DNA of 36,336 nt. Origin: an uncultured Spartobacteria bacterium. GTDB taxonomy: Bacteria; Verrucomicrobiota; Verrucomicrobiia; Chthoniobacterales; Chthoniobacteraceae. The number at the start of each line of letters is the position of its first letter. Within the stretch, counting starts at the first letter, position 1. The notes below the pieces were generated by a model that was not told where the DNA came from, ran no database searches, and worked only from the letters and a program-made list of their open reading frames with translations. This document shows positions 11,515 through 31,514 of this stretch, one piece after another. The position numbers and the translations under genes were made by a program. Location of the stretch: positions 1 through 36,336 of the forward strand of contig CAIZLD010000059.1 in NCBI GenBank assembly GCA_903933715.1. Direction: 5' to 3'.

Positions 11515-12442
11515 CGAGCCCGCCGCCGCGCCGGATCGCAGCGACTACTGGGGCTCCCATAGCGAGCTGGCCAGCTACGATTTCACCTTTGGCGAACGGA
11601 TCGGCTGGAAATGGGATACCGTGATCGCTGAACTCAAGGTGCGCGGCTGGACCCCGCCCGAGGGGACCGCGCTTGACTGGGGGTGCGGCACCGGCGTGGC
11701 CGGTCTGCGCGTCGCCCAAGCCTGGCCGGAGGCGGTGCAATTTCTGCGAGTCAGCGACCGTTCCAACCCGGCCCAGCGTTTCGCCGCTAAGAAGGCGACC
11801 TCCACGGGCATCGCGGTGCAATCCGCCGCTACGGCAGGGGATGCCGCGCCCAATTTGCTGGTCATCAGCCATGTGCTCAACGAACTGACCCCGGATGCGC
11901 TGGAAAATCTCCTCGCGCTGGCCGAACGGGCCGAAGCGGTGCTTTGGGTGGAGCCGGGCACCTTCACGGTGAGCCGCCAGCTCGTCGCCGTCAGGGAACG
12001 GCTCAAGGAACGCTTCCGCGTGATTGCCCCCTGCACCCATCGGCAAGCGTGCGGTTTGGCGTCGCCCGGCAGCGAGCGCCACTGGTGCCATCATTTCGCT
12101 AAAATCCCCGGTTTTGTTCACACCGACCCGGGTTGGGGACGGTTCAGCCGGACCTTGAAGGTCGATTTAAGCACCCTCCCGATGAGCTTTCTGGTGCTCG
12201 ACCGCCGCCCGGCAGCGCTCGCCGCCCCGGAGCAAAGTAGTGAGGCGCGCATTCTGGGAGAGCCCCGTTATTACAAGGGGTTTTCGAAAATCCTGAGCTG
12301 CCAGGCCGACGGCGTCAGCGAGCTGATCTTGCAAAAACGGGACGTCTCCGAGTTGCTCAAAGCGATGAAAAAAGATCCCGGCTCGCTCTATCGCTGGGAG
12401 CGCGACGGTGAGAAGATCCGCTCCGGCGAGAGGATTTTCTAA
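11420..12442 (+). CDS. Rsm22/METTL17-like methyltransferase with four-cysteine site
   Basis: The 340-residue protein matches the Rsm22 family, linked to assembly of the ribosomal small subunit. The SAM motif LDWGCGTGVAG is at 85-95, followed by ISHVLNEL (149-156), VEPGT (177-181) and APCTHRQACG (203-212). C205, C211, C223 and C294 fit the ligand order reported for the iron-sulfur cluster of METTL17, with the diagnostic CxxxxxC spacing of the first pair. The start at 11420 lies inside the preceding methyltransferase gene (95-bp overlap). No other ATG precedes the conserved part of the frame. Whether it methylates RNA or acts only as an assembly factor cannot be told from sequence. Confidence 0.8.
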   Translation: MESNTTGSNNFLWTDVNWKALERLRCRFLSFSEPAAAPDRSDYWGSHSELASYDFTFGERIGWKWDTVIAELKVRGWTPPEGTALDWGCGTGVAGLRVAQAWPEAVQFLRVSDRSNPAQRFAAKKATSTGIAVQSAATAGDAAPNLLVISHVLNELTPDALENLLALAERAEAVLWVEPGTFTVSRQLVAVRERLKERFRVIAPCTHRQACGLASPGSERHWCHHFAKIPGFVHTDPGWGRFSRTLKVDLSTLPMSFLVLDRRPAALAAPEQSSEARILGEPRYYKGFSKILSCQADGVSELILQKRDVSELLKAMKKDPGSLYRWERDGEKIRSGERIF

Positions 12443-12457
12443 TAGCCATCCCGGGGT

Positions 12458-12655
12458 GCCGGGCTTCAGCCGGCATTCTCCTTTGCCACCAGCTTCAGCT
12501 GGTGGTCTAGATGCAACCCCGATGCCCCAGCCGGCTTCAGCCGGGCTTTTCCTTTTCACAGGAGAAGCCCGGCTGAAGCCGGCTCAAGAACTTGCCCGGC
12601 GGCGCACCACCGGCTGAAGCCGGTGGCAAAGCGGATTTGCCGGCTAAAGCCCGGC
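12458..12655. repeat. 198-bp symmetric palindrome built of six hairpins
   Basis: Hairpins lie at 12458-12474, 12486-12505 and 12529-12552 (cores GCTTCAGC) and, mirrored, at 12561-12584, 12607-12626 and 12639-12655 (cores GCTGAAGC or GCTAAAGC). Pair sums of coordinates are constant to within one base, so the array is symmetric about 12556. The two central arms are 24 bp long with one mismatch. The element fills most of the space between the Rsm22-like and DUF1844 genes. Confidence 0.85.
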
Positions 12656-12786
12656 ATGGGAACCCAACAGCACGGGGGGATTTACGGAAAACTTTTTCAT
12701 AGGCTTCCCCTCGTCCTTTCCTCCGCCGCGGTTTTCGAAAACTTGCCGCTTGAAGGGGGCTCGTCCCTCCGGTACAGATTAAAGCA
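12656..12786. other. Spacer upstream of the DUF1844 gene
   Basis: About 130 bp without a gene, containing a small inverted TTTTCGAAAA at about 12732-12741. It must hold the promoter of the downstream LPS/PTS gene run, if that run has one start. I could not identify convincing -35/-10 boxes. Confidence 0.3.
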
Positions 12787-13095
12787 ATGGCCGAAGTCCA
12801 AACCACCACCGTTTCCGGCGAAATGACGCTCCGTTTTATCGAATTCGTGCGAATGCACTCGCAAAACGCCTCGTTTTGCCTCGGGTTAATCCCCCTTCCT
12901 CAAACCGGCAAACCCCAGGTAAACCTTCCGGTCGCTCGCGTTTTGATCGAACAGCTTGAAGCCATTGCTGTCAAAACCCGCGGCAACCTTTCGCAGGAAG
13001 AACAAACAGTCCTCAACAACGCCATTTCCACCCTGCAAACGGCTTACCGGCAGGCTCAATCCAACACCACCTCCTCCGGTCAACCGGCGGTCTAA
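12787..13095 (+). CDS. DUF1844 family small protein
   Basis: This 102-residue cytosolic protein has the DUF1844 pattern. An N-terminal helix (TLRFIEFVRMHSQNASFCLG) is followed by a short loop with IPLPQTGKPQVNLPVARVLIEQL, then the KTRGNLSQEEQTVLNNAISTLQTAY helix pair. There are no catalytic residues and the family function is unknown. The last residues are Ser/Thr/Gln-rich and probably disordered. It sits 11 bp before kdsA and may share its transcript. DUF1844 genes often lie beside unrelated housekeeping genes, so the neighbourhood says little. Confidence 0.8.
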   Translation: MAEVQTTTVSGEMTLRFIEFVRMHSQNASFCLGLIPLPQTGKPQVNLPVARVLIEQLEAIAVKTRGNLSQEEQTVLNNAISTLQTAYRQAQSNTTSSGQPAV

Positions 13096-16578: not shown

Positions 16579-16597
16579 ATGAAATAAGGCAGTTCCT

Positions 16598-16648
16598 CGT
16601 TCCCAAACTCTGTTTGGGAACGCACTTGTCCGCGAAACTCCGTTTCGC
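16598..16648 (+). repeat. Two-hairpin unit, copy 3
   Basis: The first hairpin is 16598-16622 (CGTTCCCAAAC paired with GTTTGGGAACG) and the second is 16632-16648 (GCGAAAC paired with GTTTCGC). Both cores read AAACTCYGTTT. The unit is 51 bp, the same length as the copies at 31362 and 31232. Confidence 0.75.
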
Positions 16649-16712
16649 AAAGCGTGGAGGATAACTGGCGCGCTGAGTTTAAAAACAGGCGTCGGCTCCA
16701 TTGCAAGCACGG

Positions 16713-16764
16713 GGAAACAGAGTTTCCAAGAGCAAGCGCGTTCCCAATCAGGAGATTGGGAACG
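16713..16764 (-). repeat. Two-hairpin unit, copy 4 (inverted)
   Basis: On the minus strand the CGTTCCCAAT/ATTGGGAACG hairpin (16739-16764) is followed by GGAAAC-TCT-GTTTCC (16713-16727). It faces copy 3 and, with it, fills most of the 232-bp hpf-hprK spacer, separating hprK from the upstream operon. Confidence 0.7.
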
Positions 16765-16810
16765 AGGACATCCACCTGAGGACACCCCTCTTCTCCCCCG
16801 CAAAAGCACT

Positions 16811-31282: not shown

Positions 31283-31361
31283 AGAGAGAAGAGCCTCTCG
31301 CAAAGACGCAAAGACGCAAAGGATTGAAAGCGGGCTGCTTTACTTTCCTCGTTACTTTCCT

Positions 31362-31412
31362 CGTTCCCAAGTTTTACTTGGGAACGCATTTTCCCGCGAA
31401 GTTGCACTTCGC
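31362..31412 (+). repeat. Two-hairpin unit, copy 6
   Basis: The first hairpin is 31362-31386 (CGTTCCCAAGT paired with ACTTGGGAACG) and the second is 31396-31412 (GCGAAGT paired with ACTTCGC). It points away from copy 5, the reverse of the facing pairs at 184/352 and 16598/16764. Confidence 0.75.
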
Positions 31413-31514
31413 AAGCCGCGTCAAAATTAAGCCCGCTTGGGATCTGAAGAGTCCCCGCTTTTGCCTCCTCTTTGCGTCTTTGCGTCTTTGCGAGAGACTC
31501 TTTTTAATTCCCCA

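Follow-up and report, generated by a model that had tools for sequence, protein, structure and literature searches.

What is the large palindrome that lies between an Rsm22-like gene and a DUF1844 gene in this genome, and how did it come to be there? It begins 14 bases past the stop codon of the Rsm22-like gene, which ends at position 12442 of the window (the whole stretch of DNA that was analysed, 36,336 nt), and the DUF1844 gene starts at 12787 in the same direction. The original prediction placed the palindrome just before a run of LPS-export genes. Downstream gene calls broadly bear this out: DUF1844 was recognised by Pfam and KdsA by NCBIfam, an LptC-like protein falls slightly short of its model cut-off (35.8 of 38 bits), and an LptA/LptD_N-domain protein and an ABC ATPase are also present. 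The palindrome itself is real. Its six stem-loops, A, B, C, C', B' and A', are mirrored about position 12556, and their positions agree with the proposed anatomy of two inverted three-hairpin blocks (Table 1). The centres of mirrored hairpins add up to 25113, 25112 and 25113, so the coordinate sums are constant to one base, as had been claimed. Two lengths required correction. The predicted extent of 198 bp (12458-12655) grows by one base at each end to 200 bp, and the central arms carry the single mismatch that had been noted but measure 25 nt rather than 24 bp. In the left B hairpin the core reads CCAGC...GCTGG instead of CCGGC...GCCGG.

Table 1. Features of the palindromic element and related sequences, in window coordinates.
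Feature	Coordinates	Strand	Basis or remark
Whole palindromic element (family 1, putative transposase-less copy)	12457..12656	+	200 bp; symmetry, fold and dispersed copies
Hairpin A (left arm, outer)	12457..12475	+	Two-sided changes that maintain the local pairing
Hairpin B (left arm, middle)	12485..12506	+	Stem pairing and two-sided changes
Hairpin C (left arm, inner)	12529..12547	+	Stem pairing
Palindrome centre	12548..12565	.	Position of the transposase gene in the C24 copy
Hairpin C' (right arm, inner)	12566..12584	-	Stem pairing
Hairpin B' (right arm, middle)	12606..12627	-	Stem pairing and two-sided changes
Hairpin A' (right arm, outer)	12638..12656	-	Stem pairing and two-sided changes
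Possible outer terminal motif, TGTGAAAAAGTC-like	12687..12705	-	34 bases from A' here; suggestive only
Family 2 arm at contig start	14..108	-	81% match to the C67 transposase arm

The palindrome did not arise by chance, since both its folding energy and its self-complementarity lie far outside the background. The RNA fold of the element reached -160.9 kcal/mol, compared with -100.5 (sd 5.2) in 200 shuffles (z -11.7), and the DNA fold gave a z-score of -10.4. Ungapped self-complementarity was 0.58 in the element and at most 0.44 elsewhere, in a scan of 723 segments of 200 bp (step 50) from which those less than 200 bp from the element were excluded when taking the maximum. The sequence CCGGCTNNAGCCGG, at up to two mismatches, occurs 14 times in the whole window where 4.6 matches are expected, and six of the 14 lie within the palindrome. 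Rfam gave no match at or above the gathering score in the whole 36,336 nt. Another hairpin family, CGTTCCCAA...TTGGGAACG with GCGAAACTC..TTTCGC, is found at 181-244, 331-354, 16595-16766 and 31359-31422 of the window and is probably the "other family" with which the original prediction compared the palindrome.

We asked which of the possible base pairings is conserved by aligning 13 long copies of the element, which we call family 1, with the structure drawn from the window copy. Inside the hairpins, 10 pairs and 19 alignment cells were changed on both sides, compared with 4.1 and 4.8 in shuffled alignments; the covariation score was 0.143 versus 0.082, and none of 500 shuffles reached either the score or the cell count. 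Pairs that join one arm to the other showed no covariation among the 13 copies (score 0.079 versus 0.080 in shuffles), with seven pairs and eight two-sided cells against 7.4 and 10.4 in shuffles, 433 of 500 of which reached the cell count. Hairpins A, B, B' and A' supply the signal. Neither C nor C' has a two-sided change, 5 of 91 cells of C' are unpaired, and these two hairpins add little to the argument for local pairing. With all rows kept, 93.0% of local cells and 88.6% of arm-to-arm cells were paired. When truncated or unrelated ends were omitted (A of C46a, C62, C8 and C29; A' of C29, C17 and C5; B' of C5), the counts were 466 of 481 local and 717 of 768 arm-to-arm cells. The copies are few and share descent, and related sequences can exceed shuffles without any structure. 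Across the aligned copies, base changes appear to preserve the single hairpins and not an arm-to-arm cruciform. Y1 enzymes read single hairpins, and hairpin-wise conservation would fit such an enzyme better than it would fit selection for one large cruciform. The element may nonetheless form a cruciform.

Family 1 is dispersed. A DNA search of the assembly to which the window belongs (G000; 2.8 Mb in 77 contigs) returned at least 51 BLAST pieces, grouped into at least 25 places; 40 of 47 candidate places were scored, and the copy counts are therefore lower bounds. The copies include full palindromes, a tandem run on contig C4, half elements and fragments. Eight of the 25 places are halves that end at an insertion of an IS66-family element, seven of them at contig ends, and joining these halves at matching junctions would bring the number of elements to about 21. 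Where other G000 copies match the window copy over a long stretch, identity is 82-91%, which gives no sign of a recent jump. In the tandem run (L012, G000:C4:7000-8700), three family 1 elements follow one another about 30 bp apart and adjoin a palindrome of a second family, described below. Three of the 57 genomes searched contain family 1: G000 itself and two species of the same genus, G001 and G003, for which the best 14 of 26 and the best 14 of 31 candidate places were scored. There was no match in the genus members G002 and G004, which are two of the four other species, or in any of the 52 genomes outside the genus.

The outer ends of the element are not sharply drawn, and a comparison of 35 flanks gave no exact definition of them. 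The TGTGAAAAAGTC motif occurs outside the arms in 17 of the 35 flanks at up to four mismatches, compared with 10% of 2000 random segments of the window. Fewer than half of the arms have it beyond A, mostly at a distance of 6-9 bases. We treat the motif as suggestive and do not rely on it because it was chosen by eye from the same flanks.

Searching G000 with Y1_Tnp (PF01797) identified three transposase genes, one of which is placed between family 1 arms. At G000:C24:14841-15481, an intact gene for a 142-aa Y1/HUH transposase lies between two inverted three-hairpin arms: 12 bases separate the first arm from the ATG, and a few bases separate the stop codon after the 142 codons from the inverted arm. 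In the window copy, by comparison, only a few bases and no gene separate the inner ends of the two arms. The same arrangement recurs at G001:C47 and G003:C482, making three species in all. Loci L034 and L035 appear to be these G001 and G003 places, as their match identities and spacing are identical, and they were counted once. The C24 protein is 85% identical to those of the two sister species, with dN/dS values of 0.10 (against L034) and 0.12 (against L035), and by these comparisons the transposase is under purifying selection. Its motifs are an HUH motif (THVH), W96 and Q97, Tyr116, Gln120, and H123 and H124, the tyrosine region reading YVANQKEHH. It matches Pfam Y1_Tnp at 2e-17 and scores 60.7 bits (cut-off 55) against the NCBIfam model for IS200/IS605 transposases, and the NCBIfam model REP_Tyr_transpos gave no match to it at E 0.001. 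Among solved chains, eight sequences were matched by the transposase profile at E 0.01 or better, including the ISHp608 transposase. The closest named relatives of the protein come from metagenome-assembled genomes labelled Verrucomicrobia and Spartobacteria, and we accordingly take the host to belong to the Verrucomicrobiota.

Because elements of the C24 type hold a gene between the same arms in three species, we read the window copy as the form without a transposase. The palindrome is very probably a non-autonomous, MITE- or REPIN-like copy of a mobile element that carries a transposase gene between its arms. The full element would consist of a three-hairpin arm, the gene for a Y1 (IS200-like HUH) transposase and the same arm inverted, and the window copy would be two such arms almost head to head with the gene missing. 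By analogy with IS200/IS605 and REP transposases, the enzyme would recognise the hairpins where the DNA is single-stranded, as on the lagging-strand template, cut through a tyrosine-DNA link and then move or copy the segment. By the same analogy, it could act in trans on arm pairs that lack the gene.

We compared sites between species. Unrelated sequence in relatives had been named as grounds against the original prediction, and no family 1 element was found behind the orthologous Rsm22-like gene in any of the four genus relatives, compared on the Rsm22-like side. Such absence is also what a mobile element predicts. A second copy in G000 lies in a spacer beside a gene that we take to be ClpB-like; both flanking genes were found in three of the four relatives (the left neighbour was not found in G004), and family 1 was absent from the spacer in all three. 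In the G003 version of this spacer (L123), a further palindrome with CACCGGGCTTCAGCCCGGTG and AAGCCGTT..AACGGCTT hairpins was seen by eye where G000 has family 1. At a third site, a gene pair on C46, the left neighbour was matched only in G000. None of these three sites yielded a precise empty site or a target duplication, and the insertion point could not be placed at the Rsm22 and ClpB-like spacers because the spacers differ too much between species. We infer that the element moves from its dispersal, the differences between sites and the copies that bear a gene.

The location of the palindrome raises the alternative that the host keeps it, between the Rsm22-like gene and the DUF1844-KdsA-Lpt genes, as a bidirectional transcription terminator, an mRNA 3'-end stabiliser or a cruciform insulator. 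Its closeness to a stop codon, between two genes read in the same direction, would suit such a role, as would the finding that, in a rough gene model, any overlap with a gene is at most 15 bases for 21 of 22 family 1 copies; for the exception (L058) the element bounds had been set too wide. A terminator-like GC hairpin with a T-rich tail behind it lies at 12531-12544, but this single match compares with 1.1 expected by chance, and a terminator and promoter scan of 12301-12900 found nothing above chance. Another copy (L006) lies between divergent genes. Together with the absence of the element behind the Rsm22-like gene in all four relatives and the lack of arm-to-arm covariation, these observations make a host function unlikely as the explanation of the palindrome. 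Such a function would be compatible with a mobile origin. The element may affect transcription at this site, and if it is a mobile element that effect would be a side effect.

The two remaining Y1 transposases of G000 show that the arrangement is not confined to family 1. Each of them, L031 on C67 and L032 on C36, lies between its own inverted arms; the arms contain two and three perfect-stem hairpins, respectively, and their sequences are unrelated. The L031 arm defines family 2, with at least 79 pieces in G000 grouped into at least 39 places (40 of 112 candidate places were scored): 34 close inverted pairs, the gene itself and four single arms. The L032 arm defines family 3, with 13 pieces that are mostly 71-89% identical. 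In seven G000 contigs a family 2 match lies no more than 70 bases from the start; the contig of the window is one of them and starts inside such a palindrome. Family 2 palindromes therefore seem to break the assembly.

Hairpins of family 1 are themselves the sites of insertions. G000 contains an IS66-family element (DDE_Tnp_IS66) with 16-bp ends, GTTCCTGTTTAGCCCG, whose junctions (loci L018-L030, L051-L058, L064-L075 and L126-L140) are located on C5, C17, C36, C40, C54, C62, C72, C73 and other contigs. We found 23 end matches, one of them without a flank, and sorted the remaining 22 by eye: eight flanks are B-type hairpins of family 1, 11 are hairpins of the GTTCCCAA type, two are a CAACCC hairpin and one lies elsewhere. 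The eight junctions in B- or B'-type hairpins would correspond to four insertions. Three of the junction pairs fit 8-bp duplications of half a hairpin, and the fourth (C36-C72) does not. The IS66-family element thus seems to use hairpins as targets, and a gene inside a palindrome need not own that palindrome. By the same logic, the palindromes could be an older hairpin repeat into which a Y1 gene merely inserted. We find this hard to credit, as three species share the same inner boundary for the Y1 gene, three different transposases of G000 each lie between their own, unrelated arms, and 20 of 29 loci from across the phylum have inverted flanks of other sequences. The chance that the palindrome is a local inverted duplication, as originally proposed, or an assembly artefact is negligible: palindromes do disturb assembly, as the seven contigs that begin at most 70 bases from a family 2 match illustrate, but the presence of family 1 in at least 25 places with different flanks in G000 and in the assemblies of two other species speaks against both ideas and refutes them for the element as a kind.

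The loci from across the phylum were obtained with a profile of four such Y1 proteins, which matched in 77 of 387 genomes, G000 included, at E 1e-15 or better. From the 76 other genomes with a match we took the 29 best-scoring loci, one per genome, which is not a random sample; the protein pattern [QN]..HH was required and the search profile was built from these very proteins, so the motif does not count as independent evidence. We compared the upstream and downstream flanks of each gene as inverted repeats, using flanks of different loci as the control. Twenty of the 29 loci scored at or above the 95% control point and 12 at or above the 99% point. The other nine had no significant inverted flanks, and three of these (L085, L088 and L102) have a shortened flank. 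A strict count of perfect-stem hairpins found two or three in the arm of 10 of the 29 loci and three in 6 of the 29, and for these six the three-hairpin design can, on sequence grounds, be called firm. Several of the 20 passing loci have one or no perfect-stem hairpin or have arms more than 200 bases from the gene (L081 and L104), and L081, L086 and L104 pass the test but look different, having one hairpin, lying far from the gene or being very long. A relative from Chloroflexi (L036) has no arms and fails the flank test. Dispersal of the arms varies. The arm in G357 gave at least 53 pieces and, in addition to the gene, at least 16 inverted pairs with a spacing of 60-176 bases (40 of 54 candidate places were scored). 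The arm in G302 gave six pieces in all, with only three further near-full arms and one fragment.

We compared family 1 to known mobile elements. Like IS200/IS605 elements, it has a transposase of the Y1 HUH family and hairpins at its ends. The end hairpins of IS200/IS605 elements are not known to form a mirrored pair, whereas the ends of family 1 mirror each other and copies without the gene are abundant. Like MITEs, the window copy shares its ends with an element that bears a transposase and lacks the gene. As to the mobility expected of a MITE, presence of the element differs between species, with no exact empty site found at the three places tried. REPINs and the RAYT/TnpAREP systems were reportedly described by Bertels and Rainey in 2011. 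These systems (Quentin et al. 2018, PMC6006769) resemble family 1 in having dispersed, gene-less inverted hairpin pairs and a gene flanked by the same units. The class 2 transposases described there have Asn-Pro after the tyrosine, where the C24 protein has Tyr-x3-Gln. The REPIN foot GT[AG]G was found at 0 of 35 outer hairpins of family 1 (A-type hairpins, scanned over the 7 bases before the stem), and family 1 has three hairpins per arm. Although the element would work like a REPIN, it does not belong to the REPIN/RAYT group because it has neither the GTAG foot nor the Asn-Pro motif.

TIRtrons, whose transposase genes are called TIRYTs, are the nearest known kind. Di Nocera et al. 2013 (PMC3733652) describe Y1 genes between long inverted repeats, some of which are wholly or partly self-complementary and some of which also occur elsewhere in the genome, singly or as dimers. 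Family 1 is alike in that its Y1 gene lies between long inverted repeats and its arms are dispersed elsewhere. Several features set it apart. The arm of family 1 is a set of three hairpins. The sequence GGGGWSAS, common to some described terminal inverted repeats, is absent on both strands from all 13 family 1 copies and all six gene-flanking arms. Quentin et al. 2018 (PMC6006769) assign 20 of the 26 TIRYTs to subclass 2.1 and divide the remaining six between 2.2 and 2.5. These subclasses have Asn-Pro motifs, whereas the C24 protein, compared by motif only, has Y---Q--HH.

Class 3 Y1 transposases (Quentin et al. 2018, PMC6006769) have the motifs W[TA] and YV[VI][AENY]EQ, and next to their genes are atypical hairpins, which a genome may contain in very large numbers. 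The glutamine in the tyrosine motif, the odd hairpins beside the gene and their number in the genome are all features of family 1, but the C24 protein has WQ and YVANQ, and the CnGA foot of class 3 lies within 7 bases of the stem in 5 of 35 family 1 arms.

By motif, the C24 protein instead resembles subclass 1.2, for which the same paper (PMC6006769) gives WQ, Y---Q--HH, a length of about 150 aa and a low gene copy number. The C24 protein has WQ, Y---Q--HH and a short core, its gene is likewise low in copy number, and its HUH motif is THVH rather than the DH[IV]H given there. As described in that paper, subclass 1.2 occurs mostly in Cyanobacteria and Bacteroidetes and is generally without typical terminal secondary structures; the genes studied here have hairpin arms and occur in Verrucomicrobiota. 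We found no report of subclass 1.2 with such arms in open-access papers, which miss most subscription journals. We lean, by a little, towards the view that subclass 1.2 Y1 proteins are the enzymes of widespread mobile elements in Verrucomicrobiota, in which each transposase would have private inverted multi-hairpin arms (three hairpins being the clearest case), gene-less arm pairs would spread as satellites, and several independent families would share a genome. If so, a transposase subclass described as generally having no DNA partner would gain one, and the palindromic repeats that break the assembly of G000 and recur in related genomes would be accounted for. The three enzyme-palindrome pairs within one genome would also offer a natural comparison for how Y1 enzymes discriminate between hairpins. 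Relative to the known systems, the pairing of the subclass 1.2 motif with hairpin arms, as read from these sequences, appears to be the new part.
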